NCBI GenBank assembly: GCA_029865835.1
Contig: JARXAL010000119.1
Span: 1 to 46,578, forward strand
Length of the DNA stretch: 46,578 bases
Direction of reading: 5' to 3'
From: Verrucomicrobiaceae bacterium
GTDB taxonomy: Bacteria > Verrucomicrobiota > Verrucomicrobiia > Verrucomicrobiales > Verrucomicrobiaceae
Numbering within the stretch: position 1 is the first letter of the stretch; every line of letters begins with the position of its first letter. Position numbers and translations under genes: made by a program. This document shows, in pieces, positions 37,344 to 46,578 of this stretch. The notes under the pieces are model-generated. The model did no database searches. It was not told the DNA's origin and saw nothing but the letters and a program-made list of their open reading frames with translations.

Positions 37344-38789
37344 CTACGCGATAATCCCCTTTACCGGATGGCCATGCACGTCTGTCAGGCGAAACTGGCG
37401 GCCTTGATAGCGATAGGTGAGTGCCTCGTGATTGATGCCGCAAAGCTGCATGATCGTGGCCTGCATGTCATGAATGTGCACCGGGTCTTTGGTGATGTTC
37501 CAGGCAAAGTCATCGGTCTCACCGACCACCGTACCTGCCTTCACACCACCACCGGCCAGCCACATGCTGTAGGCGCGGCCAAAGTGATCCCTGCCATTCG
37601 GCTTCGCAGGATCTCCCTGCCCAAAAGGTGTGCGACCAAACTCCCCGCCCCAAACCACCAGCGTGTCATTCAGCAGTCCCCGCTCCTTGAGGTCCATCAC
37701 CAGCGCCGCGCTTGGGGCATCCGTGTCCTGACACTGGGCCTCGAGCTGGGTGAAGAGATTGTTATGCTGATCCCAACCCGCATGCATGCATTGCACAAAG
37801 CGTGTCCCGCGTTCCAGCAGACGCCGGGCGATGAGACAGTTGTTGGCAAAGGTTCCTTTCACCAGTGCATCCGGACCATAGCGTGCAATCACGTGTTTGG
37901 GCTCATCCGAGAAGTCCAGCAGATCCGGAACACTCGCCTGCATCTTGTAGGACATCTCATATTGGGCGATGCGAGTGTCGATCTCTGGATCACCGTAATC
38001 ACTCAAATGCGCTTCATTCATGGCTCGGAGATCATCGAGCAAGGAGCGTCGCTGTTCGCGACTCATGCCTGGAGGATTCTGCAGATAAGGCACCGGATCA
38101 CCGACATTGCGGAAGCGCACGCCCTGATAACGGCTCGGCAGGAAGCCGCTGCCCCAGTAGTAATCATAAAAAAGTTGGCCGCAGGTCTTGCCTTTATCTG
38201 AAGAGGTCATCGCCACGAAAGCCGGCAACTCACTGGAGTCACAGCCAAGCCCGTAGCTCAACCAAGCCCCGAGACTCGGGCGCCCTGGCACCTGAGCTCC
38301 CGTCATGAAAAAGGTCACCCCAGGCGCGTGATTCACGGCTTCCGTGTTCATTGAGCGCACCAGACAGATGTCATCCGCAATGGACCCGATGTTCGGCAAC
38401 ATGGAACTCATCTCGATACCGCTTTTGCCATACCGTTTGTAGGGCTTGATCGGCGGCGTGATCGGCCATTTGGCATAACTGGCTGACATCGTTGAAAGCC
38501 GTGTTGCTCCTCGAACACTCGCCGGGATGTCCTGCATGGCCATCTTCTGCAGCATCGGCTTCGGGTCGTAGAGATCCACATGCGACGGACCGCCGCCCTG
38601 CCACAAACAGACCACTCGCTTCGCTTTGGGCGCAAAATGCGGCAAATCAGGAAGGCCGGGCACATTGGCAGTCGCCGTTCGCTCACCAAGCAAGGACGCC
38701 AGCGCAATGCCGCCAATGCCTTGCGCCGCATTGCCAAAAAGCTGACGCCGGGTGACGCGCTGTTGATTGAGAAGAAGTTCGTGCTGCAT
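37344..38789 (-). CDS. Tat-exported DUF1501 protein
   Basis: A 481-residue protein of the DUF1501 family (PF07394), related in fold to alkaline phosphatase/sulfatases. The N-terminus VTRRQLFGNAAQGIGGIALASLL is a twin-arginine-type signal. Family blocks present are CLWQGGGPSHVDLYDPKP, VRSMNTEAVNHAPG, LGAWLSYGLG, GTRFVQCMHAGWDQH, NDTLVVWGGEFGRTPFGQ and GRDHFGRAYSMWLAGGGV. Members are encoded next to DUF1549/DUF1553 proteins throughout Planctomycetes and Verrucomicrobiota; the role is unknown. It lies 19 nt downstream of such a gene, clearly one operon. Confidence 0.92.
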   Translation of the reverse strand: MQHELLLNQQRVTRRQLFGNAAQGIGGIALASLLGERTATANVPGLPDLPHFAPKAKRVVCLWQGGGPSHVDLYDPKPMLQKMAMQDIPASVRGATRLSTMSASYAKWPITPPIKPYKRYGKSGIEMSSMLPNIGSIADDICLVRSMNTEAVNHAPGVTFFMTGAQVPGRPSLGAWLSYGLGCDSSELPAFVAMTSSDKGKTCGQLFYDYYWGSGFLPSRYQGVRFRNVGDPVPYLQNPPGMSREQRRSLLDDLRAMNEAHLSDYGDPEIDTRIAQYEMSYKMQASVPDLLDFSDEPKHVIARYGPDALVKGTFANNCLIARRLLERGTRFVQCMHAGWDQHNNLFTQLEAQCQDTDAPSAALVMDLKERGLLNDTLVVWGGEFGRTPFGQGDPAKPNGRDHFGRAYSMWLAGGGVKAGTVVGETDDFAWNITKDPVHIHDMQATIMQLCGINHEALTYRYQGRQFRLTDVHGHPVKGIIA

Positions 38790-38808: not shown

Positions 38809-41337
38809 CTATTCGCGAGTCAGGGCTTCGTCGAGATTGAGTAAAATCAGGCACACCGCCGTGAACGCAGCATGCTCGACAGGATCAAGCTTTTCATTCT
38901 TGGGCGCTGAGCCAATGGCAACCACTTCAGCCGCCGCCGCCGGGTCGGCCTGATAAATGGCCAATTGCTTGTCAAAGGCTTTGCCCAGCATGGCCCGATC
39001 TCGATCTGTCGGCGAACGCCCCAGAACACGGCGGTAGGCATAGCTCAACCGCTCATCCCTTTTTTTGGCCGCCTCCATGCTGCGTGCTGCGAGCACTCGC
39101 GCCGCCTCAGCCCACGTCGGATCATTCAGCGTGGTCAGGGCGTGAAGCGGTGTGTTGGTGATGTTCTGGCGCACCTTGCAAACCTGACGGTTCGCAGCGT
39201 CGAACATGTTTGCAGGCCCCACCGTTCGCCGCCAAAACGTGTAAAGACTTCGGCGATACAAGTCCTTGCCGCTTGAGGTCGGATAAGTGAAATCACGTTC
39301 TTTGGTGATGGCAAGCGATTCCCAAATTTGATCAGGCTGATAGGGATAAACGGGGGCTCCTCCAACCCGGTTATCCAGCAGACCACTTGCCCCCAGCGCC
39401 ACGTCACGCAGGATCATCGAAGGCATGCGGAATCGAGCACCACGGGCCAGCAATCGATTCTCAGGATCCATCTGCACCAACTCCCGACTCACTTTGCTGC
39501 TCTGGCGATAAGTCGCACTAGTGACGATGAGGCGATGCAGATGTTTCATGCTCCAACCGCGCTCGCGGAATTCGACAGCCAGCCAATCCAAAAGTGCCCC
39601 GTGCGCTGGCGCTTCACTCTGCACCCCCAAATCTTCGACCGTCTTCACAAGGCCCGTCCCAAACAAAGTCTGCCACATCCGGTTCACCTGCACGCGAGCA
39701 GTCAGCGGATGATCGGGTTGGAACAGCCACTGGGCAAAGCCCAGCCGATTCTGCGGTGATCCCTTGGTTGCAGGCGGCAAAAAAGCCGGGGTCGTTCCGG
39801 AGACCTTCTCCTTGGGTTTCAGGTATTCGCCGCGATCCAAAACGAAGGTATCGCGCGGCTTGTCATCACGCATGATCATTATCCTTGGGATGCGTTCATT
39901 CTTGAACGTGGTCAGCTGAGTCTTCAGATCCTCCACTTGTTTGGATGGCGCATCAGCCGCAGCGATCTTTGGCCACACATCGCTTTCGAACGCAGCACGA
40001 AGACTCTTTTGAAGCTCCCTCTTTTGCTCTTCGGTACGCTTTTCAGCAGGAATGCGCAGCAAAGTCGTAATATTCGGACGCAGCGGACGATCCAGCCGAC
40101 CAGCTTTCGTTTCAGGCGTCACCGCAGCCTCCCAGGCAGCAAAAGCCAGATCTTTTTTGATCTTCACCTGCCCCTCAGCTTCCACTTTGGCGCGTTTGGC
40201 TTCGATCTCAGCCATCTGACGTTTGTTCTCCTCAGTGAGCATCTCCAGAAAGGGTGCCGCGACACGCTTGGCACCGCCTCCACCCCCTGCGCGACCATCT
40301 TCGGAGACCTGATTGAAAATCGACATCAGGCTGTAGTAGTCGCGTTGGGTCATCGGATCATACTTGTGATCATGACATTGCGCACAAGCCATGGTCAATC
40401 CCAGCCACGTGGTTGAAGTGGTATCCACCCGATCAAACAGAATGTTGAAGCGCTGCTCCTCAGGGATGGCACCTCCTTCCCCATTGAGCAGGTGGTTCCG
40501 ATTGAAGGCCGTGGCAATCATCTGCTCCTGCGAGGCATTCGGCAGCAGGTCACCCGCTAGCTGCTCAATGGAGAATTGACTGTACGGCATGTCCGCGTTC
40601 AGCGCTTTCACAACCCAATCACGCCAGACCCATTGAAACGTGTCACCATCCTGCTGGAAGCCATTGCTATCCGCATACCGCGCCGCATCCAGCCAGGGTA
40701 AAGCCAAGCGCTCTCCGTAGTGTTCCGATTTCAACAGCCTCTCCACCAGTTTGTCGTAAGCGTCAGGTGCTTTGTCCGACTCGAACGCATCCACTTCAGC
40801 GGGTGACGGCGGCAGGCCGATCAAATCCAAAGACAGCCGACGAATCAGGGTGGTCTTGTCCGCTTCAGGAGAAGGTTGGAGTTTCTTAGCCTCCAGTTTC
40901 GCCAAAACAAACCTGTCAATCTCATTGCGCACCCACCCAGTCTGCTTCACTTCCGGTAGCGGCGCTTTCACAGGGGCCGTAAAGGTCCAATGCTTCTCAT
41001 AGTTGGCCCCCTCAGCGATCCATTGCTTTAGCAGGGCCTTCTGTTCCTCCGTGAGCTTTCGATTCGACTTCGCCGGCGGCATCAATTCATCAGCCTCATG
41101 CGAAAAGAGCCTCGCAACCAGCTCGCTTTCTTCAGGCTTCCCGGGCACAAACGCCCCGAACTCAACCGCTGCCTCCCGCACATCCAGCCGCAGATCCGCC
41201 TTTCTTTTGTTCGGGTCCTGCCCATGACAATAAAAACAATTCTCCGCCAGAATAGGCCGGACGTCCTGATTGTAGGACACTTCCGCCAGCACAGCAAAAG
41301 TGGGTATCAGGGTAAGAGATGAAAGAACGAACTTCAT
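38809..41337 (-). CDS. Planctomycete-type cytochrome c-like DUF1549/DUF1553 protein
   Basis: An 842-residue exported protein (signal peptide to about residue 18). An N-terminal haem-type motif C34-F-Y-C-H38 followed by MPPAKSNRKLTEEQ is the PSCyt1 domain. DUF1549 runs from about 125 to 330 and ends with a second CxxCH (CAQCHDHKYDPM). A charged coiled-coil-like linker (EENKRQMAEIEAKRAKVEAEGQ) separates it from DUF1553 (about 550-810). I chose ATG 41337; an in-frame GTG at 41343 is also possible. Upstream on its strand is the palindrome TTACG-N6-CGTAA, and TATTAT at 41348-41353 is a plausible -10. It forms an operon with the DUF1501 gene. Confidence 0.92.
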   Translation of the reverse strand: MKFVLSSLTLIPTFAVLAEVSYNQDVRPILAENCFYCHGQDPNKRKADLRLDVREAAVEFGAFVPGKPEESELVARLFSHEADELMPPAKSNRKLTEEQKALLKQWIAEGANYEKHWTFTAPVKAPLPEVKQTGWVRNEIDRFVLAKLEAKKLQPSPEADKTTLIRRLSLDLIGLPPSPAEVDAFESDKAPDAYDKLVERLLKSEHYGERLALPWLDAARYADSNGFQQDGDTFQWVWRDWVVKALNADMPYSQFSIEQLAGDLLPNASQEQMIATAFNRNHLLNGEGGAIPEEQRFNILFDRVDTTSTTWLGLTMACAQCHDHKYDPMTQRDYYSLMSIFNQVSEDGRAGGGGGAKRVAAPFLEMLTEENKRQMAEIEAKRAKVEAEGQVKIKKDLAFAAWEAAVTPETKAGRLDRPLRPNITTLLRIPAEKRTEEQKRELQKSLRAAFESDVWPKIAAADAPSKQVEDLKTQLTTFKNERIPRIMIMRDDKPRDTFVLDRGEYLKPKEKVSGTTPAFLPPATKGSPQNRLGFAQWLFQPDHPLTARVQVNRMWQTLFGTGLVKTVEDLGVQSEAPAHGALLDWLAVEFRERGWSMKHLHRLIVTSATYRQSSKVSRELVQMDPENRLLARGARFRMPSMILRDVALGASGLLDNRVGGAPVYPYQPDQIWESLAITKERDFTYPTSSGKDLYRRSLYTFWRRTVGPANMFDAANRQVCKVRQNITNTPLHALTTLNDPTWAEAARVLAARSMEAAKKRDERLSYAYRRVLGRSPTDRDRAMLGKAFDKQLAIYQADPAAAAEVVAIGSAPKNEKLDPVEHAAFTAVCLILLNLDEALTRE

Positions 41338-41376
41338 GGTCACATCAATAATACGCCACTTTTAACCCATTCTCTG

Positions 41377-41392
41377 TTACGAGGGTTCGTAA
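41377..41392. promoter_or_regulatory. TTACG-N6-CGTAA dyad upstream of DUF1549/DUF1553 operon
   Basis: TTACGAGGGTTCGTAA is a perfect 6-bp inverted repeat with a 4-nt centre. It lies between the response regulator stop and the DUF1549/DUF1553 start. The -10-like TATTAT (41353-41348) follows 23 nt after it on the minus strand, which would put the dyad over the -35 region, where an activator of RNA polymerase often binds. The same dyad frame recurs at 44047-44062. Confidence 0.6.
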
Positions 41393-41394
41393 AG

Positions 41395-42036
41395 TCATGC
41401 CTCGGCTATCAACCGCTCAGCCACTACTTTCGAGACGGCTGCCGTGGCGCAATTCACGTGGAGCTTGCGGTAAATGCTGCGGGTGACGTAATCGGCGGTG
41501 TGGGGATTCAGGCCGGTGACTTCCGCGATTTGTTTTCGTGGCATGCCCGCAACCATGCATTTCAAGACCGACTGCTCCCGCTCATCCAATCCGTAGTCTT
41601 TCCTTGCAGGGGCTAGCTTGGCGAACATCGACAGGACGCGTGTGGCAATGCGCGGGTTCATCGGCGAACCTCCGGCGATCGCTTGATCAATCGCAGTGAT
41701 GACCTGGGCCATGGGCTCAGACTTCAACAGGTAGCCGGAGGCTCCGGCGCAGATAGCACCGAAAATTTTGTCGTCATCTTCAAAAACGGTCAGGATGAGT
41801 ATGCTGGCCGTCGGTGCACGACTTTTAAGATGAGCGATGCCTTCGATGCCATTCATACCGGGCAGACCGACGTCCAAAAGGATGACCTCGGGTGCCGAGT
41901 CTTCATCAAGCGCCAGGATCGCATCTTCACAGTTCACAAAAGCCCGCACCCGATGCTCGTGCGGCTTCATGCTGAGCGCTCGCTCGGTGCCACGGCGAAA
42001 GGCGGCATTGTCTTCGATGATCCAAACGTGGGACAT
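41395..42036 (-). CDS. NarL/LuxR-type response regulator
   Basis: A 213-residue DNA-binding response regulator. The receiver domain has the acidic pair (IIEDN), phospho-acceptor Asp55 in VILLDVGLPG, the Thr switch in LILTVFED and Lys in YLLKSEP. The C-terminal LuxR-type HTH (LDEREQSVLKCMVAGMPRKQIAEVTGLNPHTADYVTRSIYRKLHV, split by the usual turn) binds DNA as a dimer. The ATG at 42036 was chosen over an upstream start at 42063. It follows its sensor kinase by 33 nt in one operon. The flanking TTACG-N6-CGTAA dyads are its likely targets. Confidence 0.93.
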   Translation of the reverse strand: MSHVWIIEDNAAFRRGTERALSMKPHEHRVRAFVNCEDAILALDEDSAPEVILLDVGLPGMNGIEGIAHLKSRAPTASILILTVFEDDDKIFGAICAGASGYLLKSEPMAQVITAIDQAIAGGSPMNPRIATRVLSMFAKLAPARKDYGLDEREQSVLKCMVAGMPRKQIAEVTGLNPHTADYVTRSIYRKLHVNCATAAVSKVVAERLIAEA

Positions 42037-42069
42037 GGTAAGCGGGGGTGCTAAGGAACTCAAACTGAC

Positions 42070-43992
42070 CTATCTGAGCGGGCACTGCAGAGTTAGCGTC
42101 GTACCTTGATGGGTTGAGTGAATTTGGAAAGTGCCACCTAGCTGTTTCGCCCGTTCCCGAAGACTGCTAAGACCAACCCCGGCAGGCACATTGGCGGGAT
42201 CAAACCCTTTTCCGTTGTCTTGAATGACGAGTTCAAAGGTGGCCCCAACAGCTTGCGCCGAAAGCTCGACTTGGGTCGCTTTTGCATGACGTAAAATGTT
42301 GGTGATGGACTCCTTGAAAAAGAGAAACACCTGCCTTCGCGATTCCTCCCGCCAAGCCGTGGGCAATTCCGATGCGGTGACTTTCCAACGCACCTCATGA
42401 TTCGGCAGCAAGCGCTTCGCTACCCTCTGCAATTGCTCCATGAGATCAATCCCAGACTCCTGGCGAGCCCCAACAAGCCAAAGCACTTCCCGCATCGCGT
42501 CCGTGGTCTCGTGAGCGATCCGGTTGATCTCCTTCCAGTCTTCCCGGTCATGCTCCGGCAACTCACTGATCACGGCGATCCCCGCGAGATTACTGCCAAT
42601 CTCATCGTGCATGTCACGAGCAAGCTGGTTGCGGAGTTGCTCCCGATCTCTCGCCTGGCGCCGACGAGAGCGAATCACCGCCCCAAAACCCAGGATGACG
42701 ATCCCCAAGGCGAAAACCGCAACCATCCAAACAAAGCGCTGCCTAGCCGCTCCACGCAAAACAATCGCCCGAGATTCCAGGCTCTGCAGATCTCGCATCA
42801 ATGTTTGCCGCAGCTCCCATTGCTCAAGCCACTGTGGCAACTCCAACAGGCGCCCATAACTTACGTGCCCGTCAGTGAGCAATGAAAGCGGGCGCATGAC
42901 CTCCCGAACCCGATCTCCTGAAGACGTCGCCGATTTCCCCCGCGCCACGTTCTGGTCACCCGAATAAACCTCTAACTCAGAGAGCGCAAAACTTTCAAAC
43001 GCGTCAGGAGACTCCAGCATCGTGATTCTGACAAAACGTCCCGACATAGCCTGCAGTGGCAAGGTGACCGGATTGTTTCCTGGGTTGGGAAATCCGGTTT
43101 CCGCGGATTGAAAGACCGTGACCGAGTCCTGCATGGACTGCCTCTTCGCGACTTCGACCCGAAATCTGACCGGGAAGCGGAATCCCGGCACATCCGCCCC
43201 CTGTCGCGCATGCAAAGGATGCAGGCGGATCTCATCGATCCCATATTCAGCACTGAGATCCACTTGCATCCAAGGCTCCGCCACATCGGGCTGCTTGATC
43301 GCAAACAGCGCATCAAATTCCGGAACAGACGAGCGATCGATGGGAGGGCCGAGGGGAGTGCGTCCATCGGTCATGTTCTGTGCGAGCCAACGCGGTGGCA
43401 GGTTGGTGCCTCTGAGATGATTTACCTTGGCACCGATAGCGATATTGCGGTTTCCCAGCAAGACCATCATCTCCGACAAAGCAAAGGTCCATCGACCCTC
43501 CACCTTCGCCATCGTGGGAATGGTCAGTCGCAGGTAGCGCGCCTTCATGCCAGGCGCGTGTACAACCACCGGAGCAGGTCCAAAAGGCACTGCATCCTCA
43601 TTCAGCTGGACTTTGAGTGGCGTGAAGGTGGCGAAGTTCTCGTCGTCCGAAGCATCCAGGCGGTAGCGGGGTGGAAAGGCGTAGGCGGATTGCGTGAGAG
43701 ACTGGAAATCGACCACCGCAGGGACGAGAGCGACCAAATCAAATGCGAGAGAATCCCCCAAATCCAACTGCACAAAGGGCGACTCCGGAGGCGAATCAAG
43801 CAGCATGGTATGTTGCAGCCCAAACTCCGGCACCGTCTGCCCGATCATCGGTTCCCCCAGTGCCTCCAGGGTCGCCCGTTTCACATTGATCGCCGCATCC
43901 GTCTGACGCAGTTCCGAACTCAACCACTCCCACTCCGCCTCAGCAGGCGCGCACAGGAAAAAGAGCAGTAACAATGGCAACAAACGGTTCAC
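42070..43992 (-). CDS. Sensor histidine kinase with discoidin-type sensor domains
   Basis: A protein of about 640 residues. I take GTG 43992 as start, because it opens a signal sequence (NRLLPLLLLFFLCAPAEA). An in-frame TTG at 44043 would be 17 residues longer, and no ATG is available. The exported part appears to hold two F5/8 type C (discoidin)-like domains; markers are VQLDLGDSLAFD, ARYLRLTIP, MQVDLSAEYGIDEIRLHP and GRFVRITMLE. A transmembrane helix (FVWMVAVFALGIVILGFGAV) leads to a HisKA_3 dimerisation domain with the phospho-His in RDMHDEIGSNLAGI. A HATPase follows (NILRHAKATQVEL, DNGKGF, GVGLSSLRERAKQLGG). It probably senses a glycan outside the cytoplasm and signals to the next gene. 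Confidence 0.92.
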   Translation of the reverse strand: MNRLLPLLLLFFLCAPAEAEWEWLSSELRQTDAAINVKRATLEALGEPMIGQTVPEFGLQHTMLLDSPPESPFVQLDLGDSLAFDLVALVPAVVDFQSLTQSAYAFPPRYRLDASDDENFATFTPLKVQLNEDAVPFGPAPVVVHAPGMKARYLRLTIPTMAKVEGRWTFALSEMMVLLGNRNIAIGAKVNHLRGTNLPPRWLAQNMTDGRTPLGPPIDRSSVPEFDALFAIKQPDVAEPWMQVDLSAEYGIDEIRLHPLHARQGADVPGFRFPVRFRVEVAKRQSMQDSVTVFQSAETGFPNPGNNPVTLPLQAMSGRFVRITMLESPDAFESFALSELEVYSGDQNVARGKSATSSGDRVREVMRPLSLLTDGHVSYGRLLELPQWLEQWELRQTLMRDLQSLESRAIVLRGAARQRFVWMVAVFALGIVILGFGAVIRSRRRQARDREQLRNQLARDMHDEIGSNLAGIAVISELPEHDREDWKEINRIAHETTDAMREVLWLVGARQESGIDLMEQLQRVAKRLLPNHEVRWKVTASELPTAWREESRRQVFLFFKESITNILRHAKATQVELSAQAVGATFELVIQDNGKGFDPANVPAGVGLSSLRERAKQLGGTFQIHSTHQGTTLTLQCPLR

Positions 43993-44046
43993 ACTTTGAT
44001 TTTGCGATATCTCACCTCGCTGGCAACTCAGTGCATGAATCAATTG

Positions 44047-44062
44047 TTACGAAATCGCGTAA
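44047..44062. promoter_or_regulatory. TTACG-N6-CGTAA dyad upstream of the two-component operon
   Basis: TTACGAAATCGCGTAA lies between the sulfatase stop and the sensor kinase start, 55 nt before the GTG. Read on the minus strand, this site and the one at 41377-41392 share the extended form TTACG-N5-TCGTAACA. I see no third copy in the window. It is a candidate autoregulatory site for the response regulator encoded downstream. Confidence 0.6.
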
Positions 44063-44070
44063 GGGATGCT

Positions 44071-45444
44071 TCAGGGTTGAATGGAAGGCAGCCCTTTGAT
44101 TTTGGCAGCCAATGCGTTCACCACATCCGCATGCTGAGCAGAAACCTCATGAAGTTCTTCGGGATCCGCATCGAGATCGTACAGCTCCCGATGGCCATCG
44201 CTCCAGTGATTAAAACGCCAGCGGGCGGTGCGGACACTCTGCCCATAGAGTTTGGGGCTGCGTGTGACAAGGGTGTAGGCTTCCTCCTTCACGTTGACAG
44301 TCGGATTTGCTAAAATGGGAAGGAGGCTGACTCCCGCCGCTGCGTGCGGCATCTTCAATCCGCACAGGTCCGTGATGGTCGGGTAAAGATCGACAAACTC
44401 GACGAGTGAACGGCTTACTTGAGCGCCTTTCATGCCTGGCGCCGCAATGATCAGAGGAGCCCGACAGGCGCGCTCAAACAGGGTGTTCTTGTTCCACCAA
44501 AGACGCTCACCGGTATGATATCCGTGATCGCTCACGAAGATAACAATGGTTTTATCCCAGAGCTTTCTTTCATCCAAAACATCAAGAACGCGACCCAATT
44601 GGGCATCCATGAAAGTGGTGCCAGCGCAATACGCGCGGAGGAGTTCGCGCCAATCATGATCCGTCAGCTTAGCAAACGCTTCCCCATAAGCTCCAAAGCC
44701 TACGGAATCCTTTCGCGCAGGCGTCATATCAGCGGGATCTTGCCAGGATTTGATTGAATCCATGGGATAGAGGTCGAAGTATCTTTTCGGTGCAATAAAG
44801 GGGTCATGAGGCTTCATGAAGCCGCATCCGATGAACCAGGGCGTATCTCCCAATGCTTTGATCTTGGCCACAGTGGCTGCTGCAATCTGCCCATCGGGTT
44901 GATCCTCATCCGTGCCATCCGCCGCCCCCCACTGACACCAGTTTAAGGCGCCCCCGGTGACATTGCGACCTTCAAGGATTTTTTTGCCAGTCTTCGTGGC
45001 TGCGTAGGCCTGCGCCGTTTGCCAGGACTTGCCCAAATCCATCCAAGCCTGCTTGGCCTGAACGTCTTTGCCGCCACCCAAATGAAACAGCTTTCCGAAC
45101 GCATGCGACTGCCACCCAGCCATCTTGCAAAGCTGAGGTAGCGTCACGATATCCGGTAGTTTTTCGCGCAGCTTCAGGTCATTCCCGACAATGCCCGTTT
45201 GTTCGGCGCGTAGTCCCGTCATCATGGAGCTTCGACTCGGATTGCACACCGGGTATTGCACATAGGCACGCTCAAACGATGTGCCATGGGCACGCAGGCG
45301 ATCCAGATTGGGTGTCTTCACCAACTCTTTCGTGTAGGCTCCTCCAAAGTCACGGAAGTCGTCCGCCATCATAAGCAGGACGTTTGGCTGATCTGCTCCT
45401 GCGACGAGCAGAGGAAATAGAGCTAGAATGAGAAGTGGTTTCAT
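44071..45444 (-). CDS. Iduronate-2-sulfatase-like secreted sulfatase
   Basis: A 457-residue type I sulfatase with a signal peptide (MKPLLILALFPLLVAGA; ATG 45444). Metal residues are in MMADDFRDFGG, the formylglycine site is C67-N-P-S-R71 with SSMMTGLRAEQTG, and GKLFHLGG, GCGFMKPHDPF and FVSDHGYHTGERLWWNK are conserved. The CNPSR motif and PHDPF segment are features of the iduronate-2-sulfatase branch. Actual substrate could be another 2-O-sulfated uronic or neutral sugar. The gene starts 2 nt after the stop of the upstream hydrolase gene, so they are co-transcribed. Confidence 0.92.
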   Translation of the reverse strand: MKPLLILALFPLLVAGADQPNVLLMMADDFRDFGGAYTKELVKTPNLDRLRAHGTSFERAYVQYPVCNPSRSSMMTGLRAEQTGIVGNDLKLREKLPDIVTLPQLCKMAGWQSHAFGKLFHLGGGKDVQAKQAWMDLGKSWQTAQAYAATKTGKKILEGRNVTGGALNWCQWGAADGTDEDQPDGQIAAATVAKIKALGDTPWFIGCGFMKPHDPFIAPKRYFDLYPMDSIKSWQDPADMTPARKDSVGFGAYGEAFAKLTDHDWRELLRAYCAGTTFMDAQLGRVLDVLDERKLWDKTIVIFVSDHGYHTGERLWWNKNTLFERACRAPLIIAAPGMKGAQVSRSLVEFVDLYPTITDLCGLKMPHAAAGVSLLPILANPTVNVKEEAYTLVTRSPKLYGQSVRTARWRFNHWSDGHRELYDLDADPEELHEVSAQHADVVNALAAKIKGLPSIQP

Positions 45445-45446
45445 GA

Positions 45447-46578
45447 TCAGCGGACCCACCGGCGATAAGGCGATGAGAAGTGAAAGGGAATGTGGTTTTC
45501 TTCGTGTTTGTGGGTCGAGATCACATCAATCGTTTTTGCGTCGGATGGAATTTCAATTTCACCGCTAAGCGTGTGTTCAGAAATGGCGTCCAATGGCATG
45601 GACTTCCAGAGATCATATTCAAAAGCAAAGGTGTAAGGCGAATGACGATTGATACTCCAAGATAGCTCACTGTGCTGTGGCAGGCTTCCGTTAGCAAAGG
45701 TGACCGAAACATGGAGTTTCGAGCCTTTGATTTCGAGCTCTAGTTTTGGTGGGGAAGGCAATGATCGATGATTGAAAAAATGGTGCCTAGCAAAGGCCAA
45801 CAGGTTTTCTGAGGCCTCGGGTTGGGTTGGTGTTTGTAGCGTGTAACCACTGGACTTGGGTCCGCCATGCTGACCACCGGGAAGGATGTAGAGTGGAAAA
45901 TCGGGTTGGCTCTCCCCAAGTTGGCGCAAGGCAGGACAGACATTGTCATTGCTGCCTACGTGATAAAAGAAATCGAGCCCTCGCTGCTTCAGCGAATCGA
46001 AGTGCTTTGCGATTCGACAAGGATTCCATGCCTCATCGTTCATCCGAAGCATCTCGGCTTCCGTCCACCCTGCAGCGAGGGCCTGTTCGATGGTAATCGA
46101 TTGATCCAGACGTGTCTGTTCACGCTTTTCGAGCGCCTCCTTGGCTGTCGCAGGCAATTCTTTCGGCAGATTGGATAGAAAGACTTCATTCTGCGCGCGC
46201 TCTTTGTGGAGGGCACTGCCGCGAACATAGGCTCCACCAGGATTTCCGAGAATCGGGGCAACGACTGGCATGATAGCCGTAAATCGATCATCGTAGATGC
46301 CGCAAATGGCTGCACCGACACCCCGCTTGGATCCGCCGGTGGCGAGCACTTTTTTCGGACGGAACACCGTGTCTTCAGCCACGGCGGCGGTTAAAGCTCT
46401 CATGTCACTCATTCCCCAAATCCAGGCCGGGGTAAATCGGGCTTCTTTCGTTCTCAAAAGATGATCCTTCATACCCAGATGCAGAGCACCCTTCGGCTCC
46501 ATGACATCGATTGTGCCCATGCCAACCATGACGATACCGACGCCGTGATCAGTGAGTAACTTCAAGTCGGCCCCGGCA
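45447..46578 (-). CDS. PhoPQ-activated pathogenicity-related-like alpha/beta hydrolase (5' end cut by right edge)
   Basis: The frame stays open to the window edge; the visible 377 residues lack the N-terminus. The nucleophile elbow is GGSKRGVGA, close to the GxSKRG motif of the PhoPQ-activated protein family (PF10142), and DDRFTAIMPVVAP follows. A later GSNDNVCPA and PGGQHGG supply candidate Asp and His. The C-terminal 100 residues form a beta-rich domain (LELEIKGSKLHVSVTF). In Verrucomicrobiota such genes lie near sulfatases, and a carbohydrate esterase role is a reasonable guess. It precedes the sulfatase by 2 nt. Confidence 0.75.
   Translation of the reverse strand, partial: AGADLKLLTDHGVGIVMVGMGTIDVMEPKGALHLGMKDHLLRTKEARFTPAWIWGMSDMRALTAAVAEDTVFRPKKVLATGGSKRGVGAAICGIYDDRFTAIMPVVAPILGNPGGAYVRGSALHKERAQNEVFLSNLPKELPATAKEALEKREQTRLDQSITIEQALAAGWTEAEMLRMNDEAWNPCRIAKHFDSLKQRGLDFFYHVGSNDNVCPALRQLGESQPDFPLYILPGGQHGGPKSSGYTLQTPTQPEASENLLAFARHHFFNHRSLPSPPKLELEIKGSKLHVSVTFANGSLPQHSELSWSINRHSPYTFAFEYDLWKSMPLDAISEHTLSGEIEIPSDAKTIDVISTHKHEENHIPFHFSSPYRRWVR

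Follow-up and report, generated by a model that had tools for sequence, protein, structure and literature searches.

A 16-bp dyad as the probable operator of a NarL-type two-component system at PSCyt1-DUF1501 operons of Verrucomicrobiota and Planctomycetota

The stretch of Verrucomicrobiaceae DNA analysed here (46,578 nt, "the window") contains two copies of the 16-bp dyad TTACG-N6-CGTAA. On comparative grounds the dyad is in all probability the operator of the response regulator (RR) encoded between its copies, which would activate the adjacent PSCyt1-DUF1501 operon and would be autoregulated in Verrucomicrobiaceae. The dyad is kept across two phyla before the same genes, and is therefore very probably the DNA switch by which a two-component system controls a haem-protein operon. 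Control of the operon of the haem-motif protein had been proposed in the initial annotation of the window, and in comparative terms it is supported across both phyla.

Genes of the locus and the two dyads

All genes of the locus lie on the minus strand in the order sulfatase, dyad 2, kinase, RR, dyad 1, PSCyt1-DUF1549-DUF1553 gene and DUF1501 gene (Table 1). The PSCyt1 protein possesses its named Pfam domains in the expected order as well as the haem motif CFYCHG, and its DUF1501 partner is present. The RR consists of a receiver (PF00072, E 1e-18) with intact E7, D8, D54 and K104, i.e. the phospho-Asp, the acidic pair and the Lys, and of a C-terminal GerE/LuxR HTH (PF00196, E 8e-8). Its closest solved structure is NarL (PDB 1a04, E 6e-22), with an alignment that spans the full length. 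The kinase contains HisKA_3 and HATPase domains (PF07730, PF02518) with an intact H-box His462, and its TM segment is read from the sequence. Membership of the window's sulfatase and esterase in the conserved unit is not supported, as they do not accompany the kinase in G028, G050 and other relatives.

Table 1. Coordinates of the genes and of the observed and predicted regulatory features; positions refer to the window unless a contig is named.
Feature	Position	Strand	Remarks
DUF1501 protein	37344-38789	-	481 aa, PF07394; operon gene 2, 19 bp downstream of gene 1
PSCyt1-PSCyt2(DUF1549)-PSD1(DUF1553) haem-motif protein	38809-41337	-	842 aa, ATG at 41337; PF07635, PF07583, PF07587
TATTAT, predicted -10 of PSCyt1 promoter	41348-41353	-	first base 24 bp after dyad
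Dyad 1	41377-41392		TTACGAGGGTTCGTAA, minus strand TTACGAACCCTCGTAA; predicted RR operator of PSCyt1-DUF1501 operon, ATG 39 bp on
NarL/FixJ-type RR	41395-42036	-	213 aa; receiver and GerE HTH
Sensor histidine kinase	42070-43992	-	GTG start at 43992; signal peptide, two F5/8C (CBM32-like), TM, HisKA_3, HATPase
Dyad 2	44047-44062		TTACGAAATCGCGTAA, minus strand TTACGCGATTTCGTAA; predicted RR operator of kinase-RR operon, kinase start 54 bp on
Sulfatase	44071-45459	-	upstream of dyad 2
Clade B dyads of the window's genome (G000)	contig C185, L084 1665-1680 and 4259-4274		TCACGCCTTTGCGTGA and TCCCGTGCTCGCGTGG, same two gaps

Both copies of the dyad are exact and a third is absent from the window, as the initial annotation had stated. 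Its estimate of about 0.04 copies expected by chance agrees with the 0.03 obtained from base composition; dinucleotide shuffles of the window give 0.01 copies and never reach two. A search of the whole assembly (4,012,571 bases in 292 contigs, 86% complete), which had been proposed as a check, recovers these two copies only, with none scattered elsewhere. Genome-wide, 2.7 dyads are expected from base composition and about one from shuffles, so the occurrence of the dyad in a genome is not in itself noteworthy. The unusual point is the position of the only two dyads of this genome, in a pair of short gaps separated by 2.7 kb. Shuffled gap pairs share a perfect dyad with 5-bp arms in 4 of 20,000 trials, any spacer of 0-12 being allowed.

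The minus-strand extension TCGTAACA noted earlier is present at both copies here, but its trailing ACA varies among relatives. The dyads had also been described as bracketing the two-component system: they do occupy both gaps, but all genes are on the minus strand and each dyad stands upstream of a gene start. In this genome the dyad serves 1 of 53 PSCyt1 domains, and the regulon would therefore be restricted to this locus. A wider regulon by way of one-mismatch sites was rejected, as these are mostly coding DNA: 9 of the 11 further sites lie within long open frames, and none of the 11 is followed by a PSCyt1, kinase or RR gene.

Conservation of the dyad and its association with one regulator clade

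In the corresponding gaps of relatives the dyad is strongly conserved from Verrucomicrobiota to Planctomycetota. Dyad 1 is kept 5' of PSCyt1 genes in both phyla, and dyad 2 is kept 5' of the kinase in Verrucomicrobiaceae and at L107. Orthologous loci of the same genus carry both dyads; G001 and G003 are 96-97% identical, which makes them hardly informative on their own and is the one point in favour of a chance match or of neutral conservation among close relatives. The likelihood of this explanation is practically negligible, given that the dyad is kept in Planctomycetota, Opitutaceae and Chthoniobacter, the flanking DNA of which is not alignable, and in front of relocated operons. A chance match is also rejected by the window and genome counts and gap shuffles given above, and by the association with PSCyt1 in Chthoniobacter flavus and across genomes described below.

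The dyad is located 5' of the PSCyt1 operon in G001, G003, G012, G054 and G098, and likewise 5' of the PSCyt1 gene in G287 and G453. Distant Verrucomicrobiaceae, with kinases 61-74% identical, keep the dyad while their flanking DNA differs. The dyad moves together with the operon: it is still in front where the operon is relocated 33 kb from the kinase (G028) or found on a different contig (G050), and in G048, where PSCyt1 and DUF1501 are separated to two places, each has its own dyad. It precedes the PSCyt1 gene in Opitutaceae (L102, L104), with one mismatch in Chthoniobacter (L105), and in Planctomycetota (L106, L109, L114), the operon of L114 being inverted relative to the RR. At L101 and L103, the RR of which lacks a PSCyt1 neighbour, a dyad was predicted off the locus and is found before a PSCyt1 gene elsewhere in both genomes; such off-locus targets are 67% (PSCyt1) and 82% (DUF1501) identical in G466 and 47% (PSCyt1) in G468. 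Most of the extra genomic dyads in relatives fall inside ORFs and are probably due to chance. The kinase gene of G054 (L010/L097) contains an in-frame TAA, i.e. it is a pseudogene or an assembly error; the RR is intact and two dyads adjoin.

Every RR with the dyad at its locus or elsewhere in its genome falls into a single clade of the tree (support 100/100). Within the family, the dyad occurs before PSCyt1 in 9 of the 11 genomes with this RR and in 1 of the 48 without it (p = 4e-8, with a few dyads of the RR-less genomes lying outside the inspection). Among the 65 exact dyads of 20 genomes with the RR clade, 23 are followed, at 137-290 bp and in the correct orientation, by a PSCyt1 domain, and seven stand before the kinase. 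Genomes without the clade have no dyad before PSCyt1 (0/28), two before DUF1501 and one before a sulfatase; the difference between 23/65 and 0/28 yields a Fisher p of 1.2e-4, or 4e-4 once near relatives are collapsed.

It is quite unlikely that the dyad serves a different, unlinked transcription factor while the linked RR acts elsewhere. Such a factor would account for G006 (a MAG, 91% complete), where the dyad precedes the PSCyt1-DUF1501 operon and an RR of the clade was not recovered, but the occurrence of the dyad before PSCyt1 tracks the RR clade in the counts just given. In G023 (L203 8916-9973), moreover, the kinase is truncated to a 78-residue remnant next to an intact RR (87% identical), the operon is gone from the locus and no dyad is present anywhere in the genome. 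The third observation against an unlinked factor is that a paralogous RR clade possesses a different dyad of its own at the same two positions.

This sister group, clade B, comprises kinase-RR-PSCyt1-DUF1501 modules with RRs 51-56% identical, one copy of which is present in the window's genome (C185). TTACG-N6-CGTAA is absent from clade B. Instead, 11 of 12 loci carry TC(A/C)CG-N6-CGTG(G/A) (TCMCG-N6-CGTGR) in the gap upstream of the kinase, in that separating RR and PSCyt1, or in both; at L205 it precedes a PSCyt1 gene 8 kb away. The recognition helix reads HTxDY throughout clade A and HTVDT in clade B (L211, in a row labelled B, falls at another place in the tree and carries neither helix). 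The Y/T position aligns with V189 of NarL, a residue that contacts bases. Among the comparative evidence, the strongest indication that the dyad would be read by the RR itself is this joint change of operator and helix between paralogues. The window's genome also encodes a third kinase-RR pair (L277, RR 45% identical), which is preceded at a distance of about 190 bp by a clade-B-like dyad (TCCCGAGTTTTCGTGA, C27:3097-3112), perhaps an operator that has diverged further.

The regulon initially proposed, operon plus kinase-RR, fits the window's genome but is larger in some others. C. flavus has 57 PSCyt1 domains in a genome of 7.8 Mb. Of its eight exact dyads, five have a PSCyt1 domain 167-287 bp further downstream (p about 1e-11), and the predicted regulon consists of six PSCyt1 genes, one-mismatch site included. 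In G466 and G472 dyads lie ahead of sulfatases, with the -10 lacking at +23 to +25, and sulfatases are possible regulon members outside the window's genome. In G453 and G468 a second dyad lies exactly 36 bp before related secreted twin-arginine/NHL-type proteins (L237 4001-4016 and L252 2650-2665), that of G468 being NHL-type by Pfam; these proteins are likely another regulon member.

Promoter layout, sensor domain and proposed mechanism

When 30 sites are aligned on the dyad, 18 possess TANNNT at +23 to +25 after it, with a peak of 14 sites at +24, as against a largest maximum of 7 in the shuffled control. The motif is missing from this position in 9 of 27 PSCyt1-type sites and in all three sulfatase/dehydrogenase sites. 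A consensus -35 is absent, the dyad covering about -51 to -36. In most PSCyt1 sites the ATG follows 35-40 bp past the dyad, so PSCyt1 transcripts should be nearly leaderless. The abutting site, fixed -10 and weak -35 are fitting for a class II activator-dependent sigma-70 promoter, and from this layout we infer activation. Repression of the operon by an RR bound against the promoter is rather unlikely: the dyad abuts the -35 region, where a bound dimer could block polymerase, but a dyad just upstream of a constant -10 and no good -35 form the usual activator-dependent class II layout, and NarL-type RRs are mostly activators.

The initial annotation knew of no regulator described for this gene family. 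This needs a small correction, as PMC2754498, citing Studholme et al., presents the ECF sigma factor RB10049 as a proposed regulator of RB10051 (PSD1/PSC2) in Rhodopirellula baltica. That pair is likewise a case of a dedicated regulator proposed for a gene of the same family, but the regulator is a sigma factor instead of a two-component system, and no palindromic operator is mentioned for it. By analogy, the element studied here could be the core promoter of an alternative (ECF) sigma factor, and CGTA does recur near the -10 in Verrucomicrobiaceae sites. This explanation is very improbable: CGTA is lost in distant sites, where TANNNT is kept, what is conserved takes the form of a perfect inverted repeat, which an ECF -35 does not, and the linked gene encodes an RR, with no sigma factor gene linked.

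The sensor of the kinase is predicted to form two tandem jelly-roll domains (pLDDT 89). Its Foldseek neighbours are neuropilin b1b2, fucolectin and CBM32 tandems, with low global TM-scores owing to a different arrangement of the domains; the match thus tells the fold class and not the ligand. A tandem CBM32/discoidin fold as modelled suggests a glycan ligand. Discoidin (F5/8C) stretches matching the sensor domains of the window kinase occur in several PSCyt1 proteins of clade B (L084, L206, L208, L212-L214), a hint that sensor and effector may bind related ligands.

With the RR as activator, the kinase would probably sense an extracytoplasmic ligand, either a glycan or derived from one, and phosphorylate the NarL-type RR. 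An RR dimer would then occupy TTACG-N6-CGTAA, immediately adjoining the -35 region in the PSCyt1-DUF1549-DUF1553/DUF1501 promoter, the dyad centre lying near -43.5, and would recruit sigma-70 RNA polymerase (class II activation) to the TANNNT -10 located 23-25 bp downstream, with a predicted transcript start about 0-5 nt from the ATG. The second dyad, before the kinase, would provide autoregulation in Verrucomicrobiaceae. Autoregulation, as claimed earlier, is supported by the kinase-side dyad of Verrucomicrobiaceae and of one planctomycete, but this support does not extend to other distant members; autoregulation is less sure because most of these lack the kinase-side dyad and because this dyad, where present, shows no clear -10, a search for a defined promoter at this dyad having found none.

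Relation to known systems and significance

The RR resembles other members of the NarL/FixJ subfamily (NarL, DevR/DosR, VraR) in its receiver and GerE HTH and, as predicted here, in binding as a dimer to an inverted repeat near the promoter. In the recognition helix, NarL has K188-V189-x-x-K192 where the window RR has D-Y-x-x-R, and the NarL heptamer differs from the half-site TTACG. The Bacillus ComA box, TTGCGG-N4-CCGCAA, is another 16-bp dyad, recognised by an RR of LuxR/NarL type and placed upstream of the -35. The window dyad differs from it in half-site and spacer, and the target genes are unrelated.

In their domains, the genes of the window operon correspond exactly to the PSCyt/PSD (DUF1549/DUF1553) and DUF1501 genes known from Verrucomicrobia and Planctomycetes. 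PMC5615132 describes PSCyt/PSD genes in freshwater Verrucomicrobia, reports their association with CBM and F5_F8 domains and the proximity of sulfatases, and states that their functions are unknown. No two-component system or operator for PSCyt/PSD/DUF1501 genes was found in the literature searched, which left many subscription journals outside. The comparisons support a new regulon of NarL-type two-component kind, with targets in a large family of functionally uncharacterised genes.

A broader proposal, which we hold tentatively and with some doubt, is that paralogous kinase-RR pairs co-duplicated with PSCyt1/DUF1501 modules and acquired private 16-bp operators through one recognition helix. 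With CBM32-like domains common to sensor and effector, and with nearly leaderless effector promoters, such pairs might act as orthogonal glycan-responsive switches among which the 50-60 PSCyt1 genes per genome are divided in Verrucomicrobiota and Planctomycetota. The paralogous pair lets the co-divergence of RR and operator be studied. A named regulator, a 10-base operator and a predicted start site together offer a direct experimental handle on the gene family, with uses in a reporter for the inducing signal and as a defined regulon in the cultured C. flavus Ellin428.
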